Position numbers and translations under genes: made by a program | Shown here: piece by piece, positions 7,342 to 62,982 of the stretch | How positions within the stretch are numbered: position 1 is the stretch's first letter | Layout: each line of letters opens with the position of its first letter | The notes under the pieces: model-generated | The model's database searches: none | What the model was told of the DNA's origin: nothing | What the model saw: only the letters and a program-made list of their open reading frames with translations | Source of the DNA: a virus | Reading direction: 5' to 3' (one strand) | IMG/VR virus record: IMGVR_UViG_3300023109_003296 | Span: 25,845 to 89,844 of that record | Length of the DNA: 64,000 nt

Positions 7342-7343
7342 AA

Positions 7344-8066: not shown

Positions 8067-8067
8067 G

Positions 8068-16800: not shown

Positions 16801-16809
16801 GTTTTTCAA

Positions 16810-17160: not shown

Positions 17161-17184
17161 TCTCTAGTTATTGTTCATCATGAG

Positions 17185-17215
17185 CGGGTGTAGTTGAAAA
17201 ACTACGCCCGTTTGT
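17185..17215 (+). terminator. Hairpin terminator after hsp20
   Basis: Eleven-base arms 17185-17195 and 17200-17210 pair with one G·U, closed by a GAAA tetraloop and followed by TTTGT. The loop itself forms part of the -35 box of the next promoter. Confidence 0.75.
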
Positions 17216-17222
17216 ATATAAT
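17194..17222 (+). promoter_or_regulatory. Sigma70-type promoter overlapping the terminator loop
   Basis: TTGAAA (17194-17199), 17-bp spacer, TATAAT (17217-17222). The next ATG is only 5 bases further (17228), where transcription should begin, so a leaderless mRNA is predicted. Confidence 0.75.
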
Positions 17223-17227
17223 AAAGT

Positions 17228-28200: not shown

Positions 28201-31200
28201 ATTATTGTAAAAAGCTCCGTCTCCAATAAAATCTACATTTCTTAAATCTAAATCACCATCTATTAAATTTAAATCATAAAAAGCATAAGGCCCTATATAT
28301 GAAATATTAGAAGAAGAAAAGTCGTAAGTGCCTTCAAAATTACAACCAGAAAAAGCTGCCTGTCCTATGTAGTTTAATGAGAACGGTAATTCTAAAGATC
28401 CTATAAAAGAATAATTATCAAAAGAGTAACCAGAAATTACCTGCAGACCTTCTTGCATTGTTAAATATAAAGGATCATCCTTGAAATAATCAAAATCCCC
28501 TTCGACAATAGTTTCTACAGAATCACTTATTATTAAGTCTGCAAACGGCAGTGGATCATTAAAAACATCGACCCCTATATTTCTAGCTGCAATATTGGAT
28601 ATAGTAATACTTAGAGTCAAGCTTTCGCAACCCAAAAATGCTCTATCATCTATACCAAGAATAAAGTCAGGTATAACTAGCTCTCCCAAAAGACCAGAAC
28701 AACCAAAAAACGTCTCTTCAAGAATATAATCAAATTCTCCAGCAGACAAATCAATTGTTGAGTTTAAATTTTTACAATTTTTAAATGCTCCAGAACCCAG
28801 GTAACCCACATTTCCAGGTAGCAATAAAGGCCCAGTCATTAATGAGCAGTCTTCGAAAGCATAATTACCTATGTATTCGCATTCACCTACATTTTCTAAG
28901 CCAAATTCCCCATCTAAACTTGAGCAGTTATAAAAAGCAAAATCCCCAATGTAATTGACAGGCGAGGGCAGATCCAAATCTCCAACTGCATTATTACAAT
29001 TATAAAAAGCATAATCGCCTATACTAATTATATTATTACCAAGAAACAACTCTCCAGAAACACCAGTGCAATTATAGAAAGCCTCATCTTCCACAGTATA
29101 AACCTCTGAGCCTACGATGATATCACCATGTATATTACTACAGTTTTTAAAAGTTTTTCCTTTTATAACCTCTATGCCGTCCCCTATATCTAATAAATCA
29201 TCAAATCCAGAACAGTTTTCGAAAACTCCACTACCTAAAGATATTACAGTGTCTGGTATTATTAGATCACCATCAAAATGACAATTATAAAAAGCATAAT
29301 CTTCAATAGTCTCAACCTCTTCTGGCAACACAAAAAACCCTGTAATACCATAGCTTCCAGAAAAAGCTCCAGATCCAATATTTTTACATGTAGATCCAAT
29401 AACTAAAAGAGCGTCTCTACTTTGATTTGTATACCAGTATGAAGGAATATCCCCTCTTATAAATTTTATAACTTCTGAAGTATTTGCATCATAAATAACA
29501 GTATCTAATGATCCGTAGCAAACAGGCATTCCTTGGTACAAACCAGCAGTCCCAGCGCTTAAGTAGTCGTTATAGTAAAAAGGAGAGACGAACATACACC
29601 CATTTACCCCAGAGAATGAATTACTTCCTTGAAATATCGTCACTGGAGAATTCATGTATACATCAGTAATTCCAGAGCACCCAAGGAAAGCTTGGTCTCC
29701 TATTGAGCTGACTCCACTCGGCATAGTCAAAGAGGAATTTAAAGATGCGCAATTCATAAAAGCGTTATCTCCTATACTTTCAATACCTGAACTCAACGAC
29801 AGTCTACCCTGCAAACCTGAGCACCCAGAGAAAGATGCGTCGCCAACAATATTGACATTAGGCAACATAAGGGAACCATTAAAAGATGAACATCCTTGAA
29901 AAGCTCCTACTTTAATTTCATTTACACTATCAGGAATAACTAAATCACCAGTCAACGAGCTGCAATTATAAAAAGTATAATCTTCTATAGTTGTTAGTTG
30001 GTTGCTTAATGTAAGCTCTCCATTAAAACCTTCGCATTGGTAAAAAGCCTCTTTACCTATACCAGAAATGTTATCTGGTATGGTTATTTCAAAACTTAAA
30101 TTCCTAGCATTTTTAAATGTTTTTTCTTTTATCTCTTTTAAAGAGTTTCCTATATAAAGCCCCCCTATAAAACCACTGCAATTTTCGAAAGCGCTCTCTC
30201 CAAGTGTTAATGTAGTATCTGGTATATATAAACTTTGATTTAATCCAGAACAGTTGTAAAAAGCTCTTTCCCCTATACTTTGCACATCGGCCAGAAATAA
30301 TGCTTCTGCGGAATCACACCCCATGAAACATTCTTCTCCTATATCTAGCACACTTGCTGGAATAAATATATTTTGCAAAGAAGAGCAATCTTTAAAACAC
30401 CTTTCTCCAAAAGCTGGTATAACACATGAAGAGTCTGTGTAAAAAGAAGGTAAGTTAGAGCAACCGATAAAAACATCTTCGCCCATCGTTAATATTTGGG
30501 GCGGTAAATAAACAGGGCTATTTATATTAGTTGCATAAGCAAAAGCGCCATCAAAAACATTGTAAGATCTTAATTCTCCAAAAGCAACTTTATATCCATT
30601 TAAATCACCAGATTGCCAATTACTAATAACATCATCCAATATGTATTCGTAAACTTTATTTTCATCATCTATAAATCTAGTAACTCCTATATCTTGTTCT
30701 GTTACAGATGTTTTAAACCCTTTGGTATCTGATATTTGAAAAGAAAATTCTAAGTTATACTTTGTCTGTTCATTGACTAAAGTTTGATACTCAACATTTT
30801 CTAATTTTATATCTTCAAAATAAAACTGCGAACTTATTTGCTTTCTGCAATCATTAGTAATGATTCTTAAGTTTGATACTTCGTCACCATAAACCAAACC
30901 ACTTATAAAACCAGCCTCCATCTGTGTTACCAAAGAAGAAATTGATAAAGTTCCTTCTATAGGGTATTCTATTTTTCTATCACAAACATAGTTGGAGCCA
31001 AGCCTATACACATTAGCCCTGTTAATAGGTATATTAACAGAAAACTCATCTATTCTATGGCTTTGAAGATTTATCTTCTGACCACCTATAGATAGATTGT
31101 CCATTTCAAATTTAATATCGTAAGGAAGTATGGTTTCTATATCTGATCTATCAAGATCGTATATATCCCCAAACTTTCCAGTCTCAAAATAATTAACATT

Positions 31201-31806
31201 ACTTAAATTTATTGATCCAACGCCAATGTTATTACCTGATTTTAAGTTTATTGAGGGCGATTCAACCTGCTGGGAGAAATAATTTTCAATTTTTATATTA
31301 GAGCAATCAAACTCTACATCAACAGTTGGAAAAGATCCTACAGAAAAATTAACGCTATAATTTGTTATATATGCATTGCCAATAGAAACAACCTCACCAC
31401 CATTAGGAAAAGACGCTCCATTTTTTATGTATTCTGCTCCATCAAAACCTTGTTCTGGATGGTTGTAAAAATAAAAATTATTAGATACTTCAGACAAACC
31501 ATTTAATATACTAAACTCTGGTTTATAATCTAAATTATAATTGAAACCAAAAAGCTCCTCGTTTGCAAAAGTAGGGGTAAAACCATAACTCATTTGCAGT
31601 GTTACATCTGGATGCCTTATTATGTTTTTTTCTTCATAAAGCTGACTTCCAATTTGCTCAACATCAGCCCTTACGTTACTAAAACCATAAGTAGCAGATC
31701 TTACACCAGCAAAAACAAATCCAGATTCAGTTGTCGTTTTGAATGATGGCGAATCGCCTATTATGACAACTGTATTTGCGCTATTTAATGTTACCCTGTT
31801 TGCCAT
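22288..31806 (-). CDS. Giant tail tube-like/BspA LRR fusion protein (3172 residues)
   Basis: The first ~400 residues are a divergent tail tube-like domain (GVRSATYGFSNVRADVEQIG, NAYITNYSVNFSVGSFPTVD, VYRLGSNYVCDRKIEYPIEG), parallel to residues 1-400 of the tail tube paralogues. From about 425 to near the end are BspA-type LRRs (e.g. AFYNCSSLDGEFGL, SIGDYAFYNCNN), probably more than 100 repeats, with occasional non-LRR spacers such as TEVFEVIQAQNNQPYSIPTR near 2040. A C-terminal repeat-like region ends RQNLPNGAQIVSVT. No signal peptide or membrane helix is seen. A solenoid this long could reach far from the tail. It is coupled to the downstream gene by ATGA. A host-binding fibre or side arm is likely but unproven. 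Confidence 0.88.
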   Translation of the reverse strand: MANRVTLNSANTVVIIGDSPSFKTTTESGFVFAGVRSATYGFSNVRADVEQIGSQLYEEKNIIRHPDVTLQMSYGFTPTFANEELFGFNYNLDYKPEFSILNGLSEVSNNFYFYNHPEQGFDGAEYIKNGASFPNGGEVVSIGNAYITNYSVNFSVGSFPTVDVEFDCSNIKIENYFSQQVESPSINLKSGNNIGVGSINLSNVNYFETGKFGDIYDLDRSDIETILPYDIKFEMDNLSIGGQKINLQSHRIDEFSVNIPINRANVYRLGSNYVCDRKIEYPIEGTLSISSLVTQMEAGFISGLVYGDEVSNLRIITNDCRKQISSQFYFEDIKLENVEYQTLVNEQTKYNLEFSFQISDTKGFKTSVTEQDIGVTRFIDDENKVYEYILDDVISNWQSGDLNGYKVAFGELRSYNVFDGAFAYATNINSPVYLPPQILTMGEDVFIGCSNLPSFYTDSSCVIPAFGERCFKDCSSLQNIFIPASVLDIGEECFMGCDSAEALFLADVQSIGERAFYNCSGLNQSLYIPDTTLTLGESAFENCSGFIGGLYIGNSLKEIKEKTFKNARNLSFEITIPDNISGIGKEAFYQCEGFNGELTLSNQLTTIEDYTFYNCSSLTGDLVIPDSVNEIKVGAFQGCSSFNGSLMLPNVNIVGDASFSGCSGLQGRLSLSSGIESIGDNAFMNCASLNSSLTMPSGVSSIGDQAFLGCSGITDVYMNSPVTIFQGSNSFSGVNGCMFVSPFYYNDYLSAGTAGLYQGMPVCYGSLDTVIYDANTSEVIKFIRGDIPSYWYTNQSRDALLVIGSTCKNIGSGAFSGSYGITGFFVLPEEVETIEDYAFYNCHFDGDLIIPDTVISLGSGVFENCSGFDDLLDIGDGIEVIKGKTFKNCSNIHGDIIVGSEVYTVEDEAFYNCTGVSGELFLGNNIISIGDYAFYNCNNAVGDLDLPSPVNYIGDFAFYNCSSLDGEFGLENVGECEYIGNYAFEDCSLMTGPLLLPGNVGYLGSGAFKNCKNLNSTIDLSAGEFDYILEETFFGCSGLLGELVIPDFILGIDDRAFLGCESLTLSITISNIAARNIGVDVFNDPLPFADLIISDSVETIVEGDFDYFKDDPLYLTMQEGLQVISGYSFDNYSFIGSLELPFSLNYIGQAAFSGCNFEGTYDFSSSNISYIGPYAFYDLNLIDGDLDLRNVDFIGDGAFYNNTSVDGFLTLNTSVTEIGEYTFYNCSSMNGSLIFSDITSGIGQYAFAECSSLSGNIYLPNNQDYTTVKTGTFQNCQGLSGNLIVHDYITSIEQDAFLGCIGLSGDITITNVTASSLVGSNSFDDSPFATLIVSESVANINNGEFDYFAPRSMEVVFQEGLSGILDNAFDNYNFVGEIDLPDSLTGIGVSAFENCDGFIGDLFIPDSVLGVGVDAFRSCFGLNGNLIIPSLLSNLGDGAFVDCTGLDGYLQISDLTAGSISSYLNVFDGTNFYQLRAASSDFLIEDTEFDTFEFWVGDLYLANSASSLGANAFVENYSFENKLTINENSETIGAYAFSGNSFTGDLHIPSLNVGYAAFAECTDFNGEFSIDPLLNETIGNYAFSGCSNLSGDLKIPETTYAVGHSAFHNMSSLDGEFRLCILPEDLEFGFSGNLTEVVYDDGELEDIFVVTISSLDVFGDYAFAGNSNLTGNLCIPDRVTSWGEYAFLDMSSLDGFLILGSGVDQIPKGIFKNCSSLKCYDDGVFKIPENINLIEEEAFYNCSSLNCDLRLKPGVFIGNDAFFNTNFANILVPSGTVAIVDEDYDTFQSFAIGLKFEFDTSPFTTIGDNAFDNYNLTGNLYLPGTTSYLGSGAFRNNSNLIGDLTIPYNVSNVRNYAFENCSSFDGDLIISDSLRIIGERAFAECRNLTSEIEIPALIEEIGSGAFQGCTGLEGIINLDKSFLLRIESHAFSGCTGISGVLTQTLPVDAFVGEDAFAGVGGIFEVGPLTYNDYLAESTLINGKPYFQGIQISGVGNPNTTFYINNDATTPTNQRLGPGINDKNDQRTEVFEVIQAQNNQPYSIPTRWADGSLRTYPRTEVPFNANGNYIDTNKKGYISGTDVKYAWLDLGVVVDGIGDYAFFSCRQLQGPLIIPNSVFNIGYAAFYDCNGLQEISLGAGLTDIEPYAFYSTENVNEPIEMPPLLETIQPYSFYGLTSCPGISFAGNSLKRIELQAFAQISHYAFNLVLPENMEYIGQQAFTSANMPGIQFGEGLSGINYRAFFDCDNINSSITLPQSLEYLGIDAFRQSSIRDYVNMPESLQLINDGAFRSCEFLRGFTSWNNLSGIGKDAFRDCLIFRGIENDNDGYVIDVPQDVYLGSRAFQGIGKSPDGQHPDKIILPSGWDISDGGVDIFKNIFYTSGLDIKNAFYIQNSMFYDMRKHFINSGTFDLDGGLTGIGDYAFYKNCENFDDAFKRHKFGNILIPNSVEYLGEGAFEQCAFLTGIEFQSGSKLKRIENRTFYEASNYDAGSRDYYRDPPIGQFHSNGYSGLQVDLIIPSGVEEIGEAAFYYVYMRDADFYLHAGVSGLGTGAFYGIESKDFYWSGDPSRPQYSKTMNEKILASAKVNNLYLTDINFEVFETGCFSNFRQTGSGANRTWVFDSGLREVKTQAFYNSDWTLDFSSVINEVSFGSPSTANPQRLWYQGFQYNKHSGVLNLPKIGLDPGYYSTFADMPYLESVVWQNPDIITTVAPKMFQGCTKLTGVTFPNNGAMTSIGYGAFDNCGLTEIDIRSTDVDFIGAYAFRENPNLTDIFLCNSQLQTLGDRAFRQCTSIDTLEICSSITNVGYSVLQESIINNLDWRANTTVMDYSSFEDARITGFTFNTFVLERIHQSAFEGAWVGNLPFTLPNSVDTISYRAFYEADISGIVLPSSLEKIGMLDNERNGFYGNTFYKSNLTGIDFSQCTSFTGHLNEDFKECPQLEEVKIAPNATTWEDRNFYSCPKLSGVYIPNNSLETMTYENFRFSNALRSCDLPEGLISMDYGNWRDATVDDVVFPSTLKTIGNYNWMGSRKFGNLVFDTQPFVVPSTLESMNHSNFQDSLGIQTLRIGAGFSGTIGNANWKNCANLTELYIDTTDTNATMGTGNFDSSTSLSLVFIAENVGTGIFEGTGNFLSTNNNIQFFVHSSVYNEYNNPTFSGRQNLPNGAQIVSVT

Positions 31807-48163: not shown

Positions 48164-49312
48164 ATGTCAAGAAACAGAGTAATTTATCAATCGGAAGCTC
48201 TCTTTGCAAGTAAAGAGCACACCTCAACAGCTGCTGCAGATCATGAGCAACTTCACAGAGTACAGAGCGCAAATTACGGATTTTCAGTTAGTCGTCAAGA
48301 TGTTAACCAGTTTGGAAACCTAGCTAGAATTGATTCTATTATTCTTGAGGCTCCTACGGTTAACTTTGACGTAACTTATTATCCTACAAACGGATTTAAT
48401 GAAAGAGTATTAGACTTTTTTGTTAGAGATGCCAACACAGATGAGAATGTATCTGGTCAGTTCGCATCAGGACACCTAGCCGCTGGCTCTGGTCAAAACT
48501 TTTACATTCTAACTGTCCCAGAAGGAAGAGACGCAAACATTAATAAGCAGGTTGGAGAAACCGAAAATAGTATTATAGGAATCGGCAACGCATTCCTTAC
48601 AGACTATACATTGGATCTTTCTGTTGGATCTCTTCCTACAGCCACAGTAGCTTTTGAAGCTTCCAATATTGTTGCAGATACAGCAATCTCTGGAAATGCT
48701 GTAGTATTTAGCGGAGTTACTTCACCAGGAGTTGACCCAGAACTTGGAGAGTCTCTCGGCCTTGATGTCGAAGTCCCAGTTGCTTCTGGAAACGCTTCGG
48801 ATTCTGAAGCTGATATTGTTTCAGCTCTTCGCCCAGGAGATATTACGGTTGACATTTCAAGCTTCCAAGGTGAGACACTAAGTAGTTTGATTGGTAGTGA
48901 TGGTATTCACGTACAGAGTGCATCTCTATCAGTTCCTCTTTCAAGATCTCCAATCGAAAGACTTGGATCTAAATTCCCATTCGCAAGGGTTGTTGATTTC
49001 CCAGTTAATGCTACATTAAGTGTTAACGCTATTGTTAACACAATGGAAGCTCAAAACCTAGCTAATGTAATTAGTGGTTGTGGAGAAACAAACAGAAGAG
49101 ACGTTACCCTTACTCTTAAAGAGTGTGGGGTAGATAAAACAGGAATGAACTTCCTCCTTAAAGGATGTACTGTTGATTCAGAAAGCTTCTCTTCCAGTAT
49201 CGGCTCTAACAAGAGTGTTGATATCACCTTCTCAACTCAAATCGGAGGAACAAGAGATGTAAATAACGGCATCTTTGTTAGCGGAAATAGCACAACAATT
49301 CCGTATGCATAA
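48164..49312 (+). CDS. Tail tube protein A
   Basis: A 382-residue virion protein. It shares near-identical blocks with the next gene: start SRNRVIYQSE, QSANYGF, DVNQ(F/Y)GNLARIDS, APTVNFD, GIGNAFL, DLSVG(S/A)LPTATV, SVPLSRSPIERLGSKFPFAR and DFPVNA. In a tail cluster next to the tape measure, the length and Gly/Ser-rich beta pattern fit a major tail tube protein that stacks in hexamers. The first 33 bases differ from the next gene by one base, showing recent duplication or conversion. Having two tube genes suggests a mixed tube, or a tube plus a decoration or tip version. Confidence 0.8.
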   Translation: MSRNRVIYQSEALFASKEHTSTAAADHEQLHRVQSANYGFSVSRQDVNQFGNLARIDSIILEAPTVNFDVTYYPTNGFNERVLDFFVRDANTDENVSGQFASGHLAAGSGQNFYILTVPEGRDANINKQVGETENSIIGIGNAFLTDYTLDLSVGSLPTATVAFEASNIVADTAISGNAVVFSGVTSPGVDPELGESLGLDVEVPVASGNASDSEADIVSALRPGDITVDISSFQGETLSSLIGSDGIHVQSASLSVPLSRSPIERLGSKFPFARVVDFPVNATLSVNAIVNTMEAQNLANVISGCGETNRRDVTLTLKECGVDKTGMNFLLKGCTVDSESFSSSIGSNKSVDITFSTQIGGTRDVNNGIFVSGNSTTIPYA

Positions 49313-49339: not shown

Positions 49340-50464
49340 ATGTCAAGAAATAGAGTAATTTATCAATCGGAATCGCTTTACGTTAGTAAAGACGCAGCAT
49401 CCACCTCCTCTGGAGATCATGAGGAGCTTATCAGGGTTCAAAGTGCAAACTATGGATTCAACATTAACAGACAGGACGTAAACCAATACGGAAACCTAGC
49501 TCGTATCGATTCTTTGGTACTTGAAGCACCAACAGTCAACTTTGACTTCTCCTATTACTTAGGTGATGGATTCAATGAAAAAGCATTAGGTTTTGATATT
49601 ACATCAAACGCCCAATTCCCAAGCGGCTTCCTCGAAAGTTCAAGCGGAAGAAACTTCTATATTGTAACTGCTGAAGAAGGTCAAGACTCAGTAAACTTCC
49701 TTAACGGAGATTCTTACAGTCTTATCGGTATCGGAAACGCATTCCTTAGTGACTACTCAGTAGACCTATCTGTTGGAGCTCTTCCTACAGCTACTGTTAC
49801 TTTTGAAGCTGCCAACATCAACTCAACAAACGGCACAATTGAAGGTACTCAACCAAGTAACTTCCACATGAGCGGCGAAAGCCCTGCGGTCGACATTGAG
49901 CTAGGTGTTCCTCTTGGAGAAGAGGTTTCTATTCTTAAGCCAGTAAACACTGGTCAAGATGGTCCTTCAGCTTTACGTCCTGGTGATATTTATATCACAT
50001 TCCCTGGATTTACTGACGATAATTCTGCACTAGCTAAGATTAGCGGAGATGGCAAGTTCCACCTTCAAAGTGCAAACCTTTCTGTGCCTCTTTCCAGATC
50101 ACCAATCGAAAGACTTGGTTCTAAGTTCCCATTTGCTAGGGTTGTAGACTTCCCTGTTAACGCATCTATGTCTGTAAACGCTATTGTGAGCGAGCAAGAA
50201 ACCAGAGACCTTTCAGCGCTTATTTCTGGCTGTACAAGTTCTCAAGGATCTGTCAGAATAACTCTTGAATCATGCGAAGGCGGTGAAGCTATCGTATGGG
50301 ACATTAAAGGAGCAACTCTCGATTCTGAATCTTATTCCTCCAGCATTGGATCAAACAAAACTGTTGATCTCACCTTTGGTGTTCAGCTTGGTGGTATCGA
50401 TGATTTAGAAAACGGCATACTTTGTAGTGGGTCTGGTCAGAACAGACCAATCTTCACTCTGTAG
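49340..50464 (+). CDS. Tail tube protein B
   Basis: A 374-residue paralogue of the preceding gene, alignable over the whole length with short indels around residues 110-125 and 165-205. Shared blocks: SRNRVIYQSE, QSANYGF, DVNQYGNLARIDS, APTVNFDFSYY, GIGNAFLSDYSVDLSVGALPTATV, LSRSPIERLGSKFPFARVVD. It is closer than gene A to the N-terminal domain of the LRR fusion at 20705-22291 (both have NFDFSYYL.DG.NEKALGF), so it is a likely donor for that fusion. A strong terminator follows 36 bp downstream. Confidence 0.8.
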   Translation: MSRNRVIYQSESLYVSKDAASTSSGDHEELIRVQSANYGFNINRQDVNQYGNLARIDSLVLEAPTVNFDFSYYLGDGFNEKALGFDITSNAQFPSGFLESSSGRNFYIVTAEEGQDSVNFLNGDSYSLIGIGNAFLSDYSVDLSVGALPTATVTFEAANINSTNGTIEGTQPSNFHMSGESPAVDIELGVPLGEEVSILKPVNTGQDGPSALRPGDIYITFPGFTDDNSALAKISGDGKFHLQSANLSVPLSRSPIERLGSKFPFARVVDFPVNASMSVNAIVSEQETRDLSALISGCTSSQGSVRITLESCEGGEAIVWDIKGATLDSESYSSSIGSNKTVDLTFGVQLGGIDDLENGILCSGSGQNRPIFTL

Positions 50465-50499
50465 TAAGAGTACAAATGGATACATAACATATATAAAAC

Positions 50500-50525
50500 A
50501 AAGCCCTGCAATCGCAGGGCTTTTT
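50500..50525 (+). terminator. Strong intrinsic terminator after tail tube genes
   Basis: Perfect 10-base arms AAAGCCCTGC (50500-50509) and GCAGGGCTTT (50514-50523), AATC loop, GC-rich stem and T tail. It separates the tail tube operon from the kinase-fold genes, whose first ATG is only 13 bases downstream. It can also form in a leftward transcript. Confidence 0.85.
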
Positions 50526-50537
50526 AATTGAGAAGCG

Positions 50538-51380
50538 ATGACATATAAGCATTTTAACGAGGTAATAATGGAGACCCCAAAATGTATTCTATTGAAAAGC
50601 AATAAAGAAAAAAAACTACTAAAACTTTTTAGAACAGAAAATTCACGCAATCCTTTTAATAAAAAATACAAAAACTCAAGCGCAATTCAAAAAGAATTTG
50701 AAAGTGCCTTAGCTATTAATAAAATTCCAATTAACAAGCCAATGTTTTACGGGAAAATTAATATAAAAGATAGAACAGGTTTTATATATGAATACATAGA
50801 GGGGGAAACTGTTAGCAGTCTTGTTCATTCCCACAAAGAAGAGAATCCTGTAGAATATAAAAAATACGCATCTTATGTATCTTCGCTACATAAAGAAATA
50901 TTAAAACAAAAATGTCCAAAAGGCGTTCTTTCATGGAAAGAAGACATGAGGCCAAAGATATGCAAATCTCCATTTCACACAAAAGAAGTAAAGCAACACG
51001 CTGTAAAACTTATTGACAGTTTGCCAGACTCTGATAGATTATGTCACGGATCATTACACAATGATAACGTTTTAGTTTCCAATGAAACACCTTATGCTAT
51101 TGATTTTGCTACAATAACTAGTGGACCTGCTTTGTATGACATAGCTAAAGCTATTTACTCAACACGCCAAGAACATAACAAAACCTTACATCAAAAAAAT
51201 GACCCAGATGGTTGGGAATTAATGTTAAAACAAAGAAAATATTTTTCCATATGCTACATGGAGCAAATGGGCGTTTGCTGGGAAGACATTCAAGATTATT
51301 ACTACTTAATAAATATTTGCAAAAAAGGAAGAGCACAACAAGAATATCAAATGCCTGACGGACAATTTTTTAGAAAATAA
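50538..51380 (+). CDS. Kinase-fold paralogue 1 (APH/choline kinase-like), degenerate catalytic loop
   Basis: A 280-residue protein of the aminoglycoside phosphotransferase/choline kinase fold. Seen: possible beta3 Lys in LLKLF (26-31), FIYEYIEGE at the hinge region, LCHGSLHNDN (168-177) in place of the Brenner loop HGDLHxxN, and AIDFATITSGPALYDIAKAI (187 onward, matching the DFG-like 'iDf....GP..yDla'). Ser172 replaces the catalytic Asp, so phosphotransfer is doubtful. I choose ATG 50538 because MTY aligns with the MEY/MKY starts of the other three copies; ATG 50568, with a GAGG ahead, is the alternative. Confidence 0.75.
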   Translation: MTYKHFNEVIMETPKCILLKSNKEKKLLKLFRTENSRNPFNKKYKNSSAIQKEFESALAINKIPINKPMFYGKINIKDRTGFIYEYIEGETVSSLVHSHKEENPVEYKKYASYVSSLHKEILKQKCPKGVLSWKEDMRPKICKSPFHTKEVKQHAVKLIDSLPDSDRLCHGSLHNDNVLVSNETPYAIDFATITSGPALYDIAKAIYSTRQEHNKTLHQKNDPDGWELMLKQRKYFSICYMEQMGVCWEDIQDYYYLINICKKGRAQQEYQMPDGQFFRK

Positions 51381-51385
51381 ACATC

Positions 51386-52114
51386 ATGGAATACAAAGAT
51401 ACAATTAAAGAAGAAAACTGGAAGCGTAAATACCTTAAAAGCATAGACGGAAATACTGCATTAAAACTGTTTTCTGAATTTATGCCAGAAAAACACATAA
51501 ATGAAGAATTCAACAAAAGCTTGATAGTTAAAGACTTGCCATTTAACAAGGCTAAGATTATTAGCAAAACAAAAGTAAGAAACAGAAAAGGTTTGGTTTA
51601 TCAGTATTTAGAGGGCCCTACATTAAAAGACTTGATGAAATCAGAAATAGATCCAGGCAAACACATGTCCTATCTTACTACATTACATAAAGATATTCTT
51701 AATATAAAAGCCCCCAATCAGTGCGAAAGCTATAAAAAAATAATAAGACCAAGAATACTAAAACCAAGAACTGATAATGTATTAATAACAAAAGAAGAAA
51801 AAAAGGAAGCATTGAGAATCCTTGATGGCTTACCTGAAGGAGATAACTTGTGTCACGGTTCTTTAAAGCCTTCCAACATTATAATATCAGGAGAAGAAGC
51901 TTATGCAATTGACCTCATGACTATATCAAAAGGCCCTGCGTTATACGACATAGCAAGAACATACTACAACTTAGATAAAAGGCACAAAGTAAAATCAGCG
52001 GAAGACTTAGAAAGAAGAATGGCTTTTGCCGCTTTATATTTAGAGGAAATGGGGACTTCTTTAGAGGAAATCAAAGACTATCTATTCTTGGTTAAATTAA
52101 TTAAAAAAGAATAA
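51386..52114 (+). CDS. Kinase-fold paralogue 2, degenerate catalytic loop
   Basis: A 242-residue, slightly shorter copy. Shared marks: start MEYKDTIKEE, NTALKLF, NKAKII, GLVYQYLEGPTLKDLM, then LCHGSLKPSNIII with Ser159 in place of the catalytic Asp and Asn164 kept, and AIDLMTISKGPALYDIAR with the metal-binding Asp176. It begins five bases after the stop of copy 1, and CATCATGGAATAC around its start matches copy 4. Like copy 1 it could bind nucleotide or substrate without phosphorylating, or use a non-standard mechanism. Confidence 0.75.
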   Translation: MEYKDTIKEENWKRKYLKSIDGNTALKLFSEFMPEKHINEEFNKSLIVKDLPFNKAKIISKTKVRNRKGLVYQYLEGPTLKDLMKSEIDPGKHMSYLTTLHKDILNIKAPNQCESYKKIIRPRILKPRTDNVLITKEEKKEALRILDGLPEGDNLCHGSLKPSNIIISGEEAYAIDLMTISKGPALYDIARTYYNLDKRHKVKSAEDLERRMAFAALYLEEMGTSLEEIKDYLFLVKLIKKE

Positions 52115-52878
52115 TGAAATATGAAGAAGTTTTATATGAAGATTCTCTGATCAAAGTTTTTAGAAGCTTTGATGGTAAAACTGTATTAAAACAATTTCCT
52201 TTTTTAACCAATGAAAAACGAATAGAGCACGAATATAACAATAGCCTAATGATTAAAAACCTACCATTCAACAAGGCTAAAGTAATTGGAAGAAATGAGG
52301 TTCATGGCAAAATGGGTATTATTTACGAATACATCAAAGGTAAAAAATTAAAAGATTTATTAATAGATGATTTTTATAAAGAAACCCATAGTTCTTATAA
52401 TGAATATTCACTTCAATTATCATCTCTGCACAAAAGACTACTTAATTGCAAAGCCCCAGAAAATGCAATTAGTTACAAAAAAAACTTAACACGCAAGGTT
52501 CAGCGATCTGAAGTCCATACAAAACAAGAAAAAAGAGAAGCTTTAGATCTTATTAAAAGTCTTCCTGAAGGAGAATCTTTATGCCACGGATCTCTAGTCC
52601 CAAACAACGTTATAATATCAGAAGGCGAGTCTTATGCTATTGATTTTGCGAGTATCACAAGGGGCCCAATCTTTTTTGATATAGCTAAAACATATTGCTG
52701 CACAGTTCAAAATTACAGGAAAAAGACTTTAGAAGAAAACTTTTCTAAAGAGTTCAGGAAAGATTTAAAAACTTTTGCAGACTTATATCTAAATGATATG
52801 GGTGTTTCGTGGTCTGATATTAAAGACTATCACTATCTTGTTAACTTCTCTAAAACAGCACATCATGGAATACGATAA
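52114..52878 (+). CDS. Kinase-fold paralogue 3, degenerate catalytic loop
   Basis: A 254-residue copy that starts on the last base of copy 2's stop (TAATG). Marks: MKYEEVLYEDSL, KTVLKQF, EHEYNNSLMIKNLPFNKAKVIG (NKAK shared with copy 2), GIIYEYIKGKKLKDLL, LCHGSLVPNNVII with Ser160 for the catalytic Asp and Asn165 kept, then AIDFASITRGPIFFDIAK with Asp177. It is most similar to copy 4 in the YEYIKG and FFDIA segments. It overlaps copy 4 by 14 bp. Confidence 0.75.
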   Translation: MKYEEVLYEDSLIKVFRSFDGKTVLKQFPFLTNEKRIEHEYNNSLMIKNLPFNKAKVIGRNEVHGKMGIIYEYIKGKKLKDLLIDDFYKETHSSYNEYSLQLSSLHKRLLNCKAPENAISYKKNLTRKVQRSEVHTKQEKREALDLIKSLPEGESLCHGSLVPNNVIISEGESYAIDFASITRGPIFFDIAKTYCCTVQNYRKKTLEENFSKEFRKDLKTFADLYLNDMGVSWSDIKDYHYLVNFSKTAHHGIR

Positions 52879-53677
52879 TGTAATTGCTGATTCAGTAACT
52901 TCTACAATACTACTAGATAAAAACGAAGAAAAGATATTAAAACTCTTCCCGAAATTCACTTGCGAAGATTTTGTTGAAAAAGAATTTAAAAATGCCCTGC
53001 TTATTAAAGATTTAGATTTTAATAAGGCTCAGGTCTACGGAAGGTATAATATCAAAAGCAGATTAGGTATTATATATGAATACATAAAAGGCCCCAGACT
53101 AACAGACCTAAGTGAAGAGGAGTTTCTCAAAGGAGAAGGTAAAGAAGATATCAAAAAACTAGAAGACTGTTCTTTTTACTTGTCTTCTTTACATAAGAAA
53201 GTACTAAAACACAAAATCCAATCATCTTCAAGTTATAAAGACTCAATAAGATATCAGATCTCATCTTCCACGATGCATACCAAGGAAGAAAAACAAGAAG
53301 GATTAAAACTTTTAAACAGTCTGCCAGAAGGAGAAAACCTGTGTCATGGCGATTTCCACGTTGGCAATGTAATCGTATCGGGAGAAGGTCCTTATCTTAT
53401 AGATTTTGCCGACGTTTGCAAAGGCCCACCTTTTTTTGATATAGCTAGGTGTTATTGCATGACAGAACATAAATACGGCTTCCACACCCTTAGGCATGAC
53501 CCAAAGCTATTTAAAAGAGCTTTAAAAATAAGGTCTATCATTGCTGAAAAATACTTAGAGCAAATGAATACTTCTTGGGAACAAATTGAAGATTATTACC
53601 ACCTAATTTATATGTGTAAAACAAACCACGATAGGTCTATTTGCGGCAATCATGTTCACCCAAGTTTCTTTGAATAA
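52865..53677 (+). CDS. Kinase-fold paralogue 4 (APH/choline kinase-like), catalytic residues intact
   Basis: A 270-residue copy. The true start is ATG 52865 (MEYDNVIADS), which aligns with MEY/MKY/MTY in the other copies; a longer frame from 52793 would only extend into copy 3. Lys27 in EEKILKLF, YEYIKGPRLTDL, a normal Brenner loop HGDFHVGNVIV with Asp163 and Asn168, and LIDFADVCKGPPFFDIAR with Asp180 are all present, so this is the one copy with a standard catalytic centre. Small-molecule kinases with this fold act on alcohol groups of sugars, choline or antibiotics. The substrate here is unknown. The set is the last of the rightward genes before the head region. Confidence 0.8.
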   Translation: MEYDNVIADSVTSTILLDKNEEKILKLFPKFTCEDFVEKEFKNALLIKDLDFNKAQVYGRYNIKSRLGIIYEYIKGPRLTDLSEEEFLKGEGKEDIKKLEDCSFYLSSLHKKVLKHKIQSSSSYKDSIRYQISSSTMHTKEEKQEGLKLLNSLPEGENLCHGDFHVGNVIVSGEGPYLIDFADVCKGPPFFDIARCYCMTEHKYGFHTLRHDPKLFKRALKIRSIIAEKYLEQMNTSWEQIEDYYHLIYMCKTNHDRSICGNHVHPSFFE

Positions 53678-53709
53678 AAAGAAGCCTCGCCTAAAAGACG
53701 AGACTCCTT
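53676..53709 (-). terminator. Terminator at the end of the leftward head operon
   Basis: Arms 53679-53689 and 53699-53709 form an 11-bp stem on the minus-strand RNA only (two G·U pairs), with a nine-base loop and a TTTTT tract after the stem. On the plus strand the same positions give A·C mismatches and no T tract, so it serves the head operon. Confidence 0.65.
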
Positions 53710-53736
53710 ACAACCAAAACAAACAACAAAAGAAAA

Positions 53737-54183
53737 TTATCCGTCCAATCCAGAAACCTGCCTGGGTTCTGATTGATACATATTGTATTTATGGACTAGT
53801 TCATCCATAATGTTTTTAGCGTCATTAGCAAAAGCTCTAATTATTTTAGCAGATTCATTCTTATTTGTGAATGTAACCCTACTTTCTCCATCGCTTATTG
53901 ATGCAACCTCACCGCCAGAGCTGACAGAACAGTCCATAATGCCACGTAGAGCGTTCCTAGCCTTCTTGGAGTAGTGATGGTATAGATATGCTTGTTTGTA
54001 TATCGCTTGAGCCTCCTCGTCCATGTCATCGCCATCTAGCTCATAACACTGATCAAGAAGCCCATTAAGAACACCAAGATTTGCTCTCATCCAAGAGAGA
54101 ATAGATTGTGTTGAGTTTAATGAGGAGTCATTATCGAACTCATCCTGCATTAATTCTTGAGCTAATTCCTCTAAAACCTGCAT
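53737..54183 (-). CDS. Putative head-associated protein
   Basis: A 148-residue acidic, mainly helical protein (VLEELAQELMQDEF, LDQCYELDGDDMDEEAQAIYKQAY). It is the last gene of the leftward head operon, overlapping the preceding 178-residue gene by one base (TAATG). No motif is recognised. A small head-completion or scaffold-associated role fits its position. The nearest hairpin terminator lies just beyond its stop. Confidence 0.5.
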   Translation of the reverse strand: MQVLEELAQELMQDEFDNDSSLNSTQSILSWMRANLGVLNGLLDQCYELDGDDMDEEAQAIYKQAYLYHHYSKKARNALRGIMDCSVSSGGEVASISDGESRVTFTNKNESAKIIRAFANDAKNIMDELVHKYNMYQSEPRQVSGLDG

Positions 54184-54805: not shown

Positions 54806-55927
54806 TTACAGTCCGTTACAGATAAGTCCAGCTAGGGCACGATTGTCAAGGACCATACGACCCTCTTCAATACCACCGAACCAGCCAATCTTGTTCTGGC
54901 GGATGCTGTACTGATCATCAGCGACAAGATTCATTTCTGAACCATTCTCTTCGTCAACGGCAATTGCCTTGATAAGAGAGTCACGACCACGATCAAGTCC
55001 AAGAAGGATCTCGTCAGCAGCACCATCGAATACTGCGGTAGAACCACCGTCTGCATCAGAATAGGTTGTAGCACCAGCGATAGTGTCGAAGATTGTGTTG
55101 AACTTCTGTCCGACGCCAAGCTCGTTAACTTCCATGATGGAAATACCGTAAAACTCAGGGAGACCACCACCAGCATTAAATACTGATTCACGAACGCTTT
55201 CAGTAGCAGCAAGGTCAGTATTTTGACCCTTGGTGTTTACTGGGTTGTAGGACATCTCACGAAGTGACTTAACAGCTTCTGGAGAAACCATGAGATCGGT
55301 GATTCCACGACGACCACCTTCTGGAGTACCTTTGTTCCAAGCGGTGTTAATGCGCTTTGCACGGGTAATGAGGTTATTGAAATCGTCAAGAAGGAATGAA
55401 CCGTCTACACCAGCACGGAAAACGTGATCCTTGCCGTTAGTAGAAGCGTTAGCGACTGCACCCATAATAAGGTTAGCAGAAGTGCGCTCTTGCTTAAGAA
55501 GGAGTTCTTGAGCCATACGAGTAAATGTCTTGCTTACAACGTCCATGCGGCTCTTGGCTGCATAACGACGATCAAAGCTAACAGCTGTGTCTAGGCTATA
55601 AGTAGCAATCTTAAGCTCAGAAACGGTAGGAGTTACTTGGTTCTGAGGAAGACCACCAGCAACGCTAGTACTGTAGATGTTTACATAGTCCTCATCAGTA
55701 ACGTCATAGTACAGATCCAACGGAATGGAAGGATTGTCCTCTGAGTTAAACTGAAGTGGAGTAAACAAGTTACTGAGCACTGGTGCATTGTTGATAACCT
55801 CTGCAATGACTGGTCCGATAAACTGAGCGAGCGCAACCTGAGCTTCGTAAGCAACCGAACGGTTCTTAGAAGCCATAGCTTTAATAAGCTCGACCTGTTC
55901 TGGAGTTCTTTTAAGTGAAATTTTCAT
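54806..55927 (-). CDS. Major capsid protein
   Basis: A 373-residue protein with higher GC and a more regular codon pattern than its neighbours, as expected for the most expressed virion protein. It lies downstream of the portal, protease-scaffold and decoration-like genes and has its own strong terminator. The beginning (KISLKRTPEQVELIKAMASK) and the beta-rich, Gly/Asp-rich body with LMVSPEAVKSLREM and YGISIMEVNELG resemble HK97-fold capsid proteins that bind no cofactor. No metal or enzyme motif is seen. The fold assignment is by position, length and pattern, not by a clear single motif. Confidence 0.8.
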   Translation of the reverse strand: MKISLKRTPEQVELIKAMASKNRSVAYEAQVALAQFIGPVIAEVINNAPVLSNLFTPLQFNSEDNPSIPLDLYYDVTDEDYVNIYSTSVAGGLPQNQVTPTVSELKIATYSLDTAVSFDRRYAAKSRMDVVSKTFTRMAQELLLKQERTSANLIMGAVANASTNGKDHVFRAGVDGSFLLDDFNNLITRAKRINTAWNKGTPEGGRRGITDLMVSPEAVKSLREMSYNPVNTKGQNTDLAATESVRESVFNAGGGLPEFYGISIMEVNELGVGQKFNTIFDTIAGATTYSDADGGSTAVFDGAADEILLGLDRGRDSLIKAIAVDEENGSEMNLVADDQYSIRQNKIGWFGGIEEGRMVLDNRALAGLICNGL

Positions 55928-56592: not shown

Positions 56593-58122
56593 TTATGAAA
56601 TTTCTATATTGCTGCGATCAAAAGCTGCAGCAAACTTTTGTTGTAATGTTTCCTCATCACGGGAAACGGTTTCGTTTGAATTTGAAATTGAAGCTTCTGT
56701 AATTTCAGCTCCATCAAGGATTTCCTCCTCGGTTTTGCTTGCTACAACTTCTTCAGTAGGCTTTGAGATTCTTTTCTCAACTTCCTCCTGAATACGTGCT
56801 TCAATTTGCTTTTCAAATTCAGCTTTAGCTTCTTTACTCTTGTGCTTCCAAACAACATCCATCTTCTCTTGGAAGGAAGCAAACGCTTCGTCTGTTGTTT
56901 CGACTGACTTGAGCTCTTTAGCTAAAAACTCTTTATCTTCGTCTTCAAGATCAAATTTTTGATCGAGTACGTCCATACGCTCATTAAAACGAGCAACCGC
57001 TTGTTCAGCCTTGATTGAGGCTTCATATTCAGCGATTTTATTTTGGGCTTCTTCGAACTTTGTCTTCAAGTCTTCGACTGAAGTTTTAAGTTCTTGGTGC
57101 TCTGCAGCAACAGCTTCTTTTTCTTCTTGTGCTTTAGTAAGTTCTGCACGAAACTCTTCGTCTTTTTCTTTGATAGCATCTGCAAAGGTGCTGGTCATAG
57201 AAGCGACAGCTTCTTGCGAGAATTTCTTTTCATGAAGAAGATCCTTCAGTTCGTTAATAACTTTTTCAGTTTCCATAGAATTATTCTTTTTAAGGTTTAC
57301 ATTAGTTTTTTCACTTTGTGAAATATTTTTATCTCTTTTGTCTTTTATAACAATTGATCTTTCTTTATCAGGCTTCATATAAACGCCCTTGACATCTGCT
57401 GCTGGATTAGTTGTATAACCAACACCTAACGGATAAATCTTGCCTGTGATGAGCCTGTTAATCACTTCACCCTTATCTGTTTTACCAGATCCTCCACACG
57501 ATCTCAACGAGCCAAGCATCTCTTCCATTTCATCAGGATCAGATATAATTCTTGCTTCGTCAAGATACTCACTGCCAACAGCCAAGACAAAATCGGAAAA
57601 ACCGACTTCCCAACTTGTAGATACAGAGTGGTACATTTCATCTCCTGAACTACAGGATTTTTCTAATGCTTCTGCAAATGTTGGGTTGGCTGATTTATAA
57701 ACCAAAGCGCCAAGAGCGATATTAAAAGGCTTGTTGTAACCAGCAAGCTCGTTTGCTTGCATGACTCTACTTGTCCCGTATTCGCTCCAACCAGCACTAG
57801 CAATATGACCAACGATTCTATCTTTATCGTGTTCTATATTTGTTGGTTTATGTATAAAGTTTTTGGTATACTCAATGGCCGTACTGGAATCAATTCCATC
57901 GCCATTTTTATTAAATTTATTTACTACAGCGGCATTAAAAGCAACGCCCATAAGGTCAATGTTGTCTTCGAAATTAATACCATTAGGGATAAGTGATTCT
58001 AAATTGTCTAATGAAGCTTTGGAGATAAAAGAGTCCCCACCTATATCGCAAGAAAAAACTTCTGCTTCAAAAGTGGCTGTATATTTATATGGGACTTTGT
58101 TCTTTCTACTTCTTTTCATCAC
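56593..58122 (-). CDS. Prohead protease-scaffold fusion
   Basis: A 509-residue two-part protein. The first ~260 residues look like a prohead serine protease: KNFIHKPTNIEHDKDRIVGH (with His 91/98/106 as histidine candidates) and SSGDEMYHSVSTSWEVGF (with the candidate Ser around 166-170). The last ~220 residues (from about 285) are a highly charged helix/coiled coil (Glu/Lys/Ala rich), typical of scaffold. An internal Met at 283 (57276) precedes the coil and could give a separate scaffold product, as in lambda C/Nu3. It overlaps the portal gene by 17 bp. Protease identity is moderately sure from pattern and place. Confidence 0.72.
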   Translation of the reverse strand: MMKRSRKNKVPYKYTATFEAEVFSCDIGGDSFISKASLDNLESLIPNGINFEDNIDLMGVAFNAAVVNKFNKNGDGIDSSTAIEYTKNFIHKPTNIEHDKDRIVGHIASAGWSEYGTSRVMQANELAGYNKPFNIALGALVYKSANPTFAEALEKSCSSGDEMYHSVSTSWEVGFSDFVLAVGSEYLDEARIISDPDEMEEMLGSLRSCGGSGKTDKGEVINRLITGKIYPLGVGYTTNPAADVKGVYMKPDKERSIVIKDKRDKNISQSEKTNVNLKKNNSMETEKVINELKDLLHEKKFSQEAVASMTSTFADAIKEKDEEFRAELTKAQEEKEAVAAEHQELKTSVEDLKTKFEEAQNKIAEYEASIKAEQAVARFNERMDVLDQKFDLEDEDKEFLAKELKSVETTDEAFASFQEKMDVVWKHKSKEAKAEFEKQIEARIQEEVEKRISKPTEEVVASKTEEEILDGAEITEASISNSNETVSRDEETLQQKFAAAFDRSNIEIS

Positions 58123-60070
58123 TGTGATAGAGTATTGCGGCTGAATAATTATCTAACTCATGTTCGGCTGATATATCAAGTATCTCAGGCAAAACATTTA
58201 AATGTTGTATGTCTTCCAAGTTAGATACACAAGAAACAGCTTTTTGCGTCCAATTTTCAACACTTGTAGAACAAACTATAGCCTCACACAAACTATCAAG
58301 CATTTTCTCGTTTCTTTTGGTGAATCTTTTTATGCTTAATTTGTCCTTCATTTCCTTTTTAATTTCGGCTCTAACCGTTTCAAGATTATGAATTGTTTTT
58401 TCTATATTTTTCCTAGAATACTTAGCTTCAGAGTTTTCTTGAGGTATTCCTGATGTACCTTCTGGTCTTCCAGGTTGTGCATTTGGTCCTTCATTTACAT
58501 CGTCTCCAGCTGGCTCAATCATAGGCACTCCACCCACGATAGGGTTGTAATAACCCTCTTCTCTCTGCTCTATAAATTTCTTTTGGGCTGGCCCTATAGC
58601 TTCCACTTCTGGGAATTTTCCAGTGTGGAACATTTCCATTCCTTGTTGAGGTGTAATAATACCAAGCTCCATAAGTCTTGTGGCAACTTTCATAAGCTGT
58701 GTTTCGTCTCTCATATCCACATCCTTAAATACAGCTTCAGGATAAGATCTAAAGCCTAACTCTTTCGAAATTCTTTTGATTTCTTTTTGTAAGAAGTCTG
58801 CCAAGAAAGCGTTCCTGGCTTCTTTAAGTCTATCAATAAATATCTGAGCCTTAACTTGTGTTGCGCCGTATTTTTCCTCGCCAACAACAACGTTTTGCAA
58901 TCCCTGTTTGATATCTTCGTTTAGTACTTTGTATTTTTCAGAGCCAAGAACTTTATTCAGGTCTGGTATAATAAATTCCGCTTTGGTTGTATAATCTGAC
59001 ACAAGAACACGCCCGACACTCTCATTCTTGAAGAGGCTTTGCATGGCGTTTAGGTTTTGTGCATTTATACCTCCTTTGTCAGGTTCTGCACCCATTGTTA
59101 TTAAAAGTATTACGTTTTCAATGGTTCGTGTTATTGCTTGATCCATTTTTTTAAGTTCAAGCTTTGCATTAATGTCCTCAAGAACTGGGTATCCAAATGG
59201 AATAGCAAATGGTTCGTAATCCTGCTTCTTGTAAAACGAGTGTGAAACTTTTTCTGGGTCCAACTTAATTTTCAGACCGTCTGTGTTATAAGCTCCTCTT
59301 TTTATACTATCTTTTACATCATCTGGTAAAGAGTCAAAGATTTCCTTATCCTCGTCTGTCGATGGGTTCTGAAGTCTTGCCATTTCATACTCAGAAAGTA
59401 TTTTTTCATAAGCACCGTCATTAAAAGAGGAAGCTCTGGTAGCTACAATGTCATAAGGATTCATTAGTATGTAACGAATCGGAACAGTATTCTTAGAAAT
59501 CCCAGTTGGGGTAATAGATTTAACTAAATCTACGAAATCATCGTCTCTAAACTTACCATCAAGTCTATACATGAATATATTTCCACTTCTGTAGTATTCT
59601 CTAAAGTATTGGTCTTTTAGGTTTGTCAGGTTTATTTTCTTAAACCATGAATTAAAGAAATCCCTACTTTTCTTAGTTCCTCCTTGCAAAAACAAATCTG
59701 TGTTGGCAAACTCAGACATAATGTCGACAGCGTTTCTGAAAACAGAGACGTTTGCATACGCTTTCTGACAAAGTTCTATGGCGTCTCTAACATTTACCCC
59801 ATCAGCTGAATACTTGTATGGAAGGAGTCCGCTTCTAATACTTGAAAACCTATCTGACTTCTTATCTAGTGCAGCTCTATTAAATCTAGTTGCCCCTTGT
59901 GCGGATGTTGATCTGGACGCTCTTGATGTCTTAAAAGAAGCTGAGGAAGTATAAAAAGGCTCACCCATAAGGTCTGGGTTGAAATCTTCGGATGGTGTCT
60001 GGATTGGCTGTTGTTCTTGATCGAACTTATTCCAGTAATCTGACTTTTTTGTATATTTTCTTTTCGCCAT
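58106..60070 (-). CDS. Portal protein
   Basis: A 654-residue protein of usual portal length. The N-terminal ~80 residues are low-complexity and polar; then come the helix-and-wing parts (e.g. RDAIELCQKAYANVSVFRNA, AIPFGYPVLEDINAKLELKK, VLVSDYTTKAEFIIPDL), and the C-terminal third is charged with a Pro/Gly-rich stretch. It forms the dodecameric ring through which DNA enters the head. It sits between terminase and protease, separated from terminase only by the two AspH-like genes. No enzyme motifs are seen. A hairpin and a TATAAT box precede the ATG. Confidence 0.85.
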   Translation of the reverse strand: MAKRKYTKKSDYWNKFDQEQQPIQTPSEDFNPDLMGEPFYTSSASFKTSRASRSTSAQGATRFNRAALDKKSDRFSSIRSGLLPYKYSADGVNVRDAIELCQKAYANVSVFRNAVDIMSEFANTDLFLQGGTKKSRDFFNSWFKKINLTNLKDQYFREYYRSGNIFMYRLDGKFRDDDFVDLVKSITPTGISKNTVPIRYILMNPYDIVATRASSFNDGAYEKILSEYEMARLQNPSTDEDKEIFDSLPDDVKDSIKRGAYNTDGLKIKLDPEKVSHSFYKKQDYEPFAIPFGYPVLEDINAKLELKKMDQAITRTIENVILLITMGAEPDKGGINAQNLNAMQSLFKNESVGRVLVSDYTTKAEFIIPDLNKVLGSEKYKVLNEDIKQGLQNVVVGEEKYGATQVKAQIFIDRLKEARNAFLADFLQKEIKRISKELGFRSYPEAVFKDVDMRDETQLMKVATRLMELGIITPQQGMEMFHTGKFPEVEAIGPAQKKFIEQREEGYYNPIVGGVPMIEPAGDDVNEGPNAQPGRPEGTSGIPQENSEAKYSRKNIEKTIHNLETVRAEIKKEMKDKLSIKRFTKRNEKMLDSLCEAIVCSTSVENWTQKAVSCVSNLEDIQHLNVLPEILDISAEHELDNYSAAILYHSDEKK

Positions 60071-61122: not shown

Positions 61123-62982
61123 CTAATCTATAAACATAGGTGTAAATGTACCCTGGCTTGATTCAATCTTGTCATCCATCATGTCGTAGTAGACATTCAT
61201 CATCCAATTCCCCAGTATCATTGCTGAGTAAGAGTCTTTCCTTGCTTTATCTGCACTGCTTTGTTTTCTCAGGTTTATTGGCAAATCAAAACTTTGTGTT
61301 CCCTGAACAGATGTATTTACTTGTATCAAAGCACACTCGACCTTAATAAGATCCATCATATCCTTTTGGTGTTCAACAAAATCAATCATTTTGGAAGGTT
61401 CGGAGTTGTTTTGATAATTTGGCAGAAAGCTCAATTTTTTTATAGGTATTTTTGCTTTTCTTTGTTTATTGTAATCATCATTCATGGCTGCGCCAGCAAA
61501 GAATATCCTCTTATGATCAAAAGAAGCTTGTAGTAATTCGTTAGCGTATCTAATCCATTTAGAAGTTGGCTTCCTTAGGAAAACATAAGTACTTGTGTCT
61601 TTGTTATACTGTCTTTTCAAACTTCGTAAGCCTTTGTCGTATTCTTGATGGTTGTCAAGATCAGCATCTATTACATTTAGTTTTAATTTTTTTCTTTTAA
61701 ATATACTACTCTCATTACAGGAGTTTAAGAACTGCACACCTCCATTATAGTCACCTACAACTGATACTATATTGAAATGCGTCAGAAGGTAAGCCATGTA
61801 CTCTATATGTGTTTTTAGATTAGCTCCTGGCAAAGCGTAACTATGAACCACAGTTCCTTTTTTAGATTCCTTGTTAAGCTTTATAAGCATAATAGCAAAA
61901 TCATCAGATGATTCACTCTCAGACCAAGACGGGTCAAAAGCAAGTATGTATTCATCCTGTGGTAGCCCAATAACTTCAACAGACTGACCCTCTCCGTCTG
62001 GAATTGTACATTCAGCCATTTTACTAACCTTGAAATAACCAGAACTATCATCTGTAAACACAGCCATAAACTCTCGGTCGAACTGAGACTGACTCATCGT
62101 CGCCTTTGCTTGGTCTATAAGGTTTTGATCATAAAGCTGTTGAGGCGCACAGTCATAACTAAAGTGCATTATTGTCCTGTGAGCTTTATCTTGTTCGTTT
62201 TGATTTAAGATCAATGATTCATATTGACTATACATCTTATACAAATGCTCAAACTTGTAAGAAGCAGATGACAACCCTATAATTTTGTTGTTAGGCCACT
62301 TTGTTCTTTCTTCTTCGGTCAACTTGCCTTGTTTTATCATCTCTGTTTCAAGATCATAAGTTTCTTGCCTCTCTGTTGGGTTCTTGATGACAGACAAGAA
62401 CGGCATGATAACCTCATTCAAAACCTTTTCAGGCATGAGTAAAAGCTCATCAATAATCATTCTCTCAAAACGGAAACCACGAAGCTTCTCTCCATCTCCT
62501 AAAGGCAAAGCAGTAATTTTGCTGGTTCCTATCTCCATGACCCATTGGTCATTAGCTTTAGACACCCTAGTTATACATTGAGATAAAAATTCAGCCTTTG
62601 GGCTTTGAGCTATCTCTTCCATCTTAGTAAAGATCATTTTTGACTGTCGAAAGGACTTAGATATGATTCCTATGTGGACACCTTGGTTCATAATAGCGTC
62701 TAATAGCGCAAAAACGGCCGTAGAGAAGCTTTTAGACATTCCACGACTCCATATCCCCAAAAAGTAATCGGTCTCCATCATGCCCTTAATAGCCATGTGC
62801 TGGAAGGGGAACAATCTGACCCCAGTTATGAACTCCGCAGCAAAAGATGGGTTCTGTCGTAGAAATTTATAAAACAGTATTTTAGCTTCATCTTCCTCAA
62901 GGTATCCTTCTATCTCTAAAAGCTCTTTATTAATATCTGGGAACCTATTTCTAGACTCTTGTATTCCTTTTATCCAACTCAT
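61123..62982 (-). CDS. terL: Terminase large subunit
   Basis: A 619-residue packaging motor. ATPase half: a variant Walker A SRGMSKS (79-85) and Walker B MIIDE with Asp178/Glu179. Nuclease half: LAFDPSWSE with the first acidic residue Asp350, and VVGDYNGG with Asp411, in the RNase H-like order of terminases. It translocates and cuts concatemeric DNA. It overlaps the ERCC4-type nuclease upstream by 4 bp. The C-terminus (IESSQGTFTPMFID) may dock on the portal. The Walker A lacks the common first Gly, as in some phage terminases. The small subunit is not clearly present; the gene cut by the right edge is a candidate. Confidence 0.92.
   Translation of the reverse strand: MSWIKGIQESRNRFPDINKELLEIEGYLEEDEAKILFYKFLRQNPSFAAEFITGVRLFPFQHMAIKGMMETDYFLGIWSRGMSKSFSTAVFALLDAIMNQGVHIGIISKSFRQSKMIFTKMEEIAQSPKAEFLSQCITRVSKANDQWVMEIGTSKITALPLGDGEKLRGFRFERMIIDELLLMPEKVLNEVIMPFLSVIKNPTERQETYDLETEMIKQGKLTEEERTKWPNNKIIGLSSASYKFEHLYKMYSQYESLILNQNEQDKAHRTIMHFSYDCAPQQLYDQNLIDQAKATMSQSQFDREFMAVFTDDSSGYFKVSKMAECTIPDGEGQSVEVIGLPQDEYILAFDPSWSESESSDDFAIMLIKLNKESKKGTVVHSYALPGANLKTHIEYMAYLLTHFNIVSVVGDYNGGVQFLNSCNESSIFKRKKLKLNVIDADLDNHQEYDKGLRSLKRQYNKDTSTYVFLRKPTSKWIRYANELLQASFDHKRIFFAGAAMNDDYNKQRKAKIPIKKLSFLPNYQNNSEPSKMIDFVEHQKDMMDLIKVECALIQVNTSVQGTQSFDLPINLRKQSSADKARKDSYSAMILGNWMMNVYYDMMDDKIESSQGTFTPMFID

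Follow-up and report, generated by a model that had tools for sequence, protein, structure and literature searches.

The 64,000-nucleotide window analysed here (bases 25,845–89,844 of an 89,844-base viral contig from an uncultured tailed phage) encodes, at positions 50538–53677 of the + strand, four intact tandem genes of the APH family (PF01636) arranged head to tail, three of which carry Ser in place of the catalytic Asp of the Brenner loop. Judging from the sequences, it may well be that a single kinase gene was amplified, that copy 4 is active, and that copies 1–3 are nucleotide-binding pseudo-phosphotransferases acting with or against copy 4. The coordinates of the array and of the features discussed below are collected in the table.

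Table. Kinase-fold genes and associated features; positions refer to the window unless marked as contig positions.
Feature	Position	Strand	Description	Basis
Kinase copy 1	50538..51380	+	280 aa, HGSLHNDN, Ser codon TCA	ORF, Pfam APH 2e-10
Kinase copy 2	51386..52114	+	242 aa, HGSLKPSN, Ser codon TCT	ORF, Pfam APH 1e-4
Kinase copy 3	52114..52878	+	254 aa, HGSLVPNN, Ser codon TCT	ORF, Pfam APH 6e-8
Kinase copy 4	52865..53677	+	270 aa, HGDFHVGN, Asp codon GAT	ORF, Pfam APH 1.6e-12
Left flank of slot	49340..50464	+	Tail protein, one of a paralogous set	Weak minor-tail PHROG match
Right flank of slot	53737..54183	-	148-aa head-module protein, convergent	
Bidirectional intrinsic terminator of tail module	50499..50526	.	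Hairpin, -17.5 kcal/mol	Terminator scan
Second, weaker terminator-like hairpin	53679..53709	.	-6.5 kcal/mol for 53674-53715	Terminator scan
Putative major capsid protein	54806-55927		No PHROG match	Identity from position
Portal	58106-60070			Weak match
Terminase	61123-62982			
Fifth kinase-fold gene (L006, contig G000:C1)	contig 16,370-17,440	-	Outside window	

The four copies share 37–44% pairwise identity and are closely packed. A gap of 5 nt separates copies 1 and 2, the end of copy 2 overlaps the beginning of copy 3 in TAATG, and copies 3 and 4 overlap by 14 nt, counting from the ATG at 52865. The ORF list places the start of copy 4 at 52793, but the ATG at 52865 aligns better with the starts of the other copies (M-E-Y), so that the shorter product is probably the correct one. 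Because the 5-nt gap, the TAATG and the 14-nt overlap join neighbouring copies, the four genes look as if they were translationally coupled. The terminator of the tail module lies 12 nt upstream of copy 1, and the second hairpin closes the cassette ahead of the convergent head gene. Consensus promoter matches in the cassette numbered 17 against 16.7 expected from shuffled sequences, and none stands out. With a strong terminator directly upstream and promoter matches at shuffle level, the cassette is likely expressed late and at a low level by read-through from the tail operon. The tail protein on the left flank belongs to a paralogous family (20705-22291, 48164-49312, and 49340-50464; 40–55% identity among members), and the N-terminal domain of a 3172-aa protein (22288-31806), which is followed by repeats similar in look to those of the 964-aa protein described below, is homologous to it.

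The original prediction of four tandem kinase-fold paralogues with a common set of motifs is borne out by the intact ORFs and their Pfam APH matches. Copies 1, 3, and 4 score above the curated PF01636 cut-off of 23.2 bits, and copy 2, at 22.6 bits, falls just below it; this marginal copy is also the most changed in the DFG-like segment (IDLMT). The LK(L/Q)F motif reads LKLF, LKLF, LKQF, and LKLF in copies 1 to 4, the hinge reads YEY, YQY, YEY, and YEY, and all four contain IDF or IDL followed by GP and DIA. The beta3 Lys, the alphaC Glu, the loop Asn, and the metal Asp are likewise kept in every copy. In an alignment with methylthioribose kinase, the Ser of copies 1–3 stands opposite the Brenner Asp of HGD. 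The Asp of the H-x-D-x(4)-N loop is present in copy 4 and in the single-copy relatives described below, so the predicted split into three HGS copies and one HGD copy holds at the level of motifs, codons, and alignment. By fold and descent, copies 1–3 are APH members as far as their sequences tell, yet they lack the residue on which the catalytic criterion of the family depends. The loss of this Asp together with the retention of Lys, Glu, Asn, and the metal Asp in the alignment makes them probable pseudokinases, of the class that retains nucleotide binding.

The AlphaFold model of copy 1 (pLDDT 80.9, pTM 0.80) is consistent with this assignment. Its best Foldseek match in the PDB is APH(3')-Ia (E 1.7e-9, TM-score about 0.6, about 12% identity), and its structural matches also include viral proteins annotated as NTP transferase or guanylyltransferase. 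Among NCBIfam models, TIGR02172 is the best match for all four copies and also for the kinase gene found singly in related phages, with E between 5e-10 and 7e-22; copies 1 to 4 have E values of 2e-18, 1.6e-12, 9e-19, and 7e-22, respectively. All miss its curated cut-off of 228 bits, the best score being 78.3 bits (copy 4), and on sequence the copies are distant relatives of this family and not members.

The genomic setting of related phages indicates which state of the loop came first. Using the putative capsid protein as the query, we fetched 80 related viral loci. Most relatives in which both flanks could be placed have a bare gap of 86–166 nt between the convergent tail gene and 148-aa head gene, and the terminator hairpin stands alone in the empty slots inspected. 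Three close relatives (L008, L011, and L015) carry a single kinase gene in the slot, directly behind an equivalent terminator hairpin. These kinases are 32–39% identical to the four copies, and all three have complete motifs (IYKLY, HGDF or HGDY then xxxN, and AIDFG). In a further relative (L051:12184-12871) the slot measures 687 nt and contains different small ORFs, one of which has a probable membrane segment, so that the site looks like an accessory or cargo position of the phage between structural genes. A profile of the four copies matches the single-copy relatives at E 4e-60 to 5e-54, and 80 sampled cellular homologues from Clostridia at 7.5e-27 for the best of them and a median near 1e-24. 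HGD is found in 80 of these 80; one cellular homologue that at first seemed to lack HGD had been misread by the text pattern. Since the relatives closest by profile are HGD without exception, as are the cellular homologues, the most simple reading of the sequences is that Asp is ancestral at this locus and that HGS is derived within the amplified set of this phage.

The array was seen in one contig. Viral contigs contained neither a near-identical second assembly nor a second array when searched with the four-copy alignment, copies 4 and 2, and the core motif, and genome contigs searched with the phage kinase alignment gave no match. Two tblastn hits (H1 and H2, on unverified gut contigs) were discarded as phage relatives, as their bacterial-type metabolic genes make them look like host fragments.

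The original prediction saw a sign of selection in the fact that three copies carry an identical substitution. The substitution is real, but as evidence it weighs less than was assumed, as a single D-to-S event before duplication may suffice to explain it. A maximum-likelihood tree separates the four copies from their relatives with full support and leaves their mutual branching without resolution, and AU tests reject no grouping of the four (all p > 0.1), so that the threefold change is not usable as an argument at face value. Three alignment columns unite copies 1–3 against copy 4 and the relatives, two of them in the catalytic motif (S172 and L173), and two other trios of copies have three uniting columns each. 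The Ser codons are all TCN, two substitutions away from GAY, which is compatible with one event and is not proof of it.

Comparative support for a functional role of such proteins comes from a second locus. The fifth kinase-fold gene of the contig sits between a gene for a ClpB-like ATPase and a small conserved gene. Its APH sequence match is weak, and its AlphaFold model (pLDDT 83.2) is matched by Foldseek to APH(4)-Ia and the choline kinase LicA. When the fifth protein itself was used to search the viral contigs, no relative came up, and homologues were located with its neighbour gene as the query. The gene reads HGD in this phage, and its syntenic homologues read HGN (L106 and L107), HGS (L093), or HVN (L108 and L109), with the HGS and HVN versions also lacking the metal Asp. 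The homologues L093 and L108 carry an extra C-terminal region. Between the two HGN versions, dN/dS is about 0.06 at a dS of about 2.4. On these sequences, purifying selection appears to maintain an Asp-less kinase-fold gene in this phage group, and the selection on the HGN versions is the best comparative support for regarding copies 1–3 as functional pseudoenzymes. L106 shares a contig with L008, giving a phage with an HGD kinase in the slot and an HGN gene of the fifth type. On the G006 contig (L027 and L093), the slot is empty and the fifth-type gene is HGS, and the two loci are thus not strictly paired.

An alternative to the amplification of a kinase together with useful pseudoenzymes is relaxed selection, whereby only copy 4 would be needed and copies 1–3 would be drifting passengers descended from one inactivated duplicate. 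The accessory nature of the slot, which is mostly empty in relatives, the strong divergence of the copies from one another, and a possible single origin of HGS, against which no AU test speaks, all fit this explanation. Nevertheless, about 3.1 kb have remained free of stops and frameshifts despite saturated synonymous sites (pS between copies 0.68–0.80). Moreover, K29, E53, N177, and D189 (copy 1 numbering) are invariant across the copies and relatives, and all four of these nucleotide- and metal-binding residues fall within the invariant columns of the ungapped alignment, which number 32 out of 227 (P = 3e-4), an observation that does not depend on how often Ser arose. The NG86 dN/dS is 0.12–0.34 between copies where computable, values that are only indicative because dS is saturated, and 0.12–0.17 among the single-copy relatives. 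The comparison of copies called for by the original prediction has therefore given ratios below 1, and its view of copies 1–3 as pseudokinases and not decaying genes is supported by these ratios, with the same reservation about dS, by the intact frames and invariant residues, and by the second Asp-less locus, whose low dN/dS also argues against drift. We consider relaxed selection unlikely.

The Ser copies might instead be active with altered chemistry, for example slow Asp-free phosphotransfer or AMP transfer, on different substrates. All ATP- and metal-binding residues are retained in these copies, kinase-fold proteins without the canonical residues can catalyse other reactions, as the AMPylase SelO does, and enzymes with Asp changed to Ser may retain residual activity. 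A substitute acidic base was sought in the loops of copies 1–3 (HNDN, KPSN, and VPNN), but D176 occurs only in copy 1 and there is no common alternative. In APH(3')-IIIa, the loop Asp is reported to be indispensable (PMC3691515), and together these points render altered chemistry improbable. The tandem amplification, the preserved nucleotide site, the lost catalytic residue, and the resemblance of the fold to antibiotic kinases would also suit a set of decoys that sequester a host metabolite, an antibiotic, or a host kinase partner without turnover, much like a gene-dosage response. The divergence among the copies is, however, too large for a recent dosage response, and PADLOC returned no specific defence-family match; such a set is in our view a rather remote prospect. 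PADLOC gave only partial matches to PD-T4-6 (E 8e-4 for copy 2 and 3e-4 for the L015 relative), and no full-length significant match to its anti-phage defence kinase models for the copies or the L015 relative. The defence or anti-defence role once considered possible for the array finds no specific support in these weak and partial matches or in the position of the slot among structural genes, and we have dropped this assignment.

Under the amplification reading, a complete single-copy kinase gene of the APH/TIGR02172 type in the accessory slot behind the tail-module terminator would have been expanded to four coupled copies. Copy 4, with its full catalytic set, is most likely an active phosphotransferase, as predicted from its sequence. 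In copies 1–3, phosphotransfer would be dead or strongly impaired, and we infer from the retained residues that they may still bind nucleotide and Mg2+; with the Asp gone and the nucleotide- and metal-binding residues in place, the likeliest reading is that they are nucleotide-binding pseudo-phosphotransferases. Since all are encoded in one apparently coupled run, they would most plausibly act with copy 4, be it as hetero-oligomer partners or regulators or by competing with it for a substrate or target. The proposed mix of one active and three altered, possibly regulatory, subunits is thus plausible from the sequences. A more specific version, in which the active kinase is gated within a heteromeric complex by three nucleotide-sensing pseudo-phosphotransferases and recurrent loss of Asp at two loci is an adaptive theme, is possible, if doubtful.

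The substrate of copy 4 is perhaps a sugar or an amino alcohol. This is a reasonable guess, no more, based on the structural resemblance of copy 1 to the viral NTP transferase or guanylyltransferase entries and on a glycosylation cluster at 4034-10159. That cluster comprises genes for a GDP-mannose dehydratase, an epimerase, GT11, and other glycosyltransferases, and suggests glycan modification by the phage. Other features of the window include a 964-aa protein consisting almost entirely of BspA-type LRR_5 repeats (17814-20708) and a small protein that by eye resembles Hsp20-type heat-shock proteins (16840-17160). Homologues of the putative capsid protein were found in viral contigs, in about 400 candidate stretches; among isolated phages, only distant matches to the terminase, none to this protein, and no nucleotide-level relative were found. 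The phage is probably aquatic, a guess that we base on the type of virus and on its relatives. An SD-like motif precedes only 2 of the 45 genes in the window, and A/T-rich leaders together with little SD use may hint at a host such as Bacteroidota.

Several known systems resemble the array in part. Members of TIGR02172, a paralogous APH-like family of Fibrobacter for which our literature search found no papers, and the Clostridia homologues are, like the copies, single-domain proteins of near 250 aa; they differ in that 80 of 80 examined keep HGD, and the copies score far below the family cut-off (78 vs. 228 bits). APH(3') phosphotransferases such as APH(3')-Ia share the kinase fold with the copy 1 model and the HGD(x4)N loop with copy 4, whereas the sequences of the copies give no sign of an antibiotic substrate and the catalytic Asp is lost in copies 1–3. 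In eukaryotes and in poxviruses, pseudokinases have been studied in depth. Vaccinia virus encodes the B1 kinase and its pseudokinase paralogue B12, which stand in an epistatic relationship (PMC6395007). The combination of a viral kinase with a pseudokinase paralogue is comparable to the array by analogy only, as B1 and B12 come from an animal virus, are of the eukaryotic protein-kinase type, and belong to a different family from the four tandem APH-type phage genes. A full-text search of a limited collection found no on-topic literature on pseudokinases in bacteriophages or aminoglycoside phosphotransferases, and pseudokinases seem to be hardly described in phages or the APH superfamily.

With one complete and three Asp-less copies, and a single-copy form in close relatives, the array is a compact natural system in which to ask how a small-molecule kinase turns into a pseudoenzyme and of what use the latter is to a virus. 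The HGD, HGN, HGS, and HVN states at the second locus suggest recurrent Asp loss that can be compared between natural relatives. If the gated complex proved true, bacterial viruses would have their own counterpart of kinase/pseudokinase pairs.
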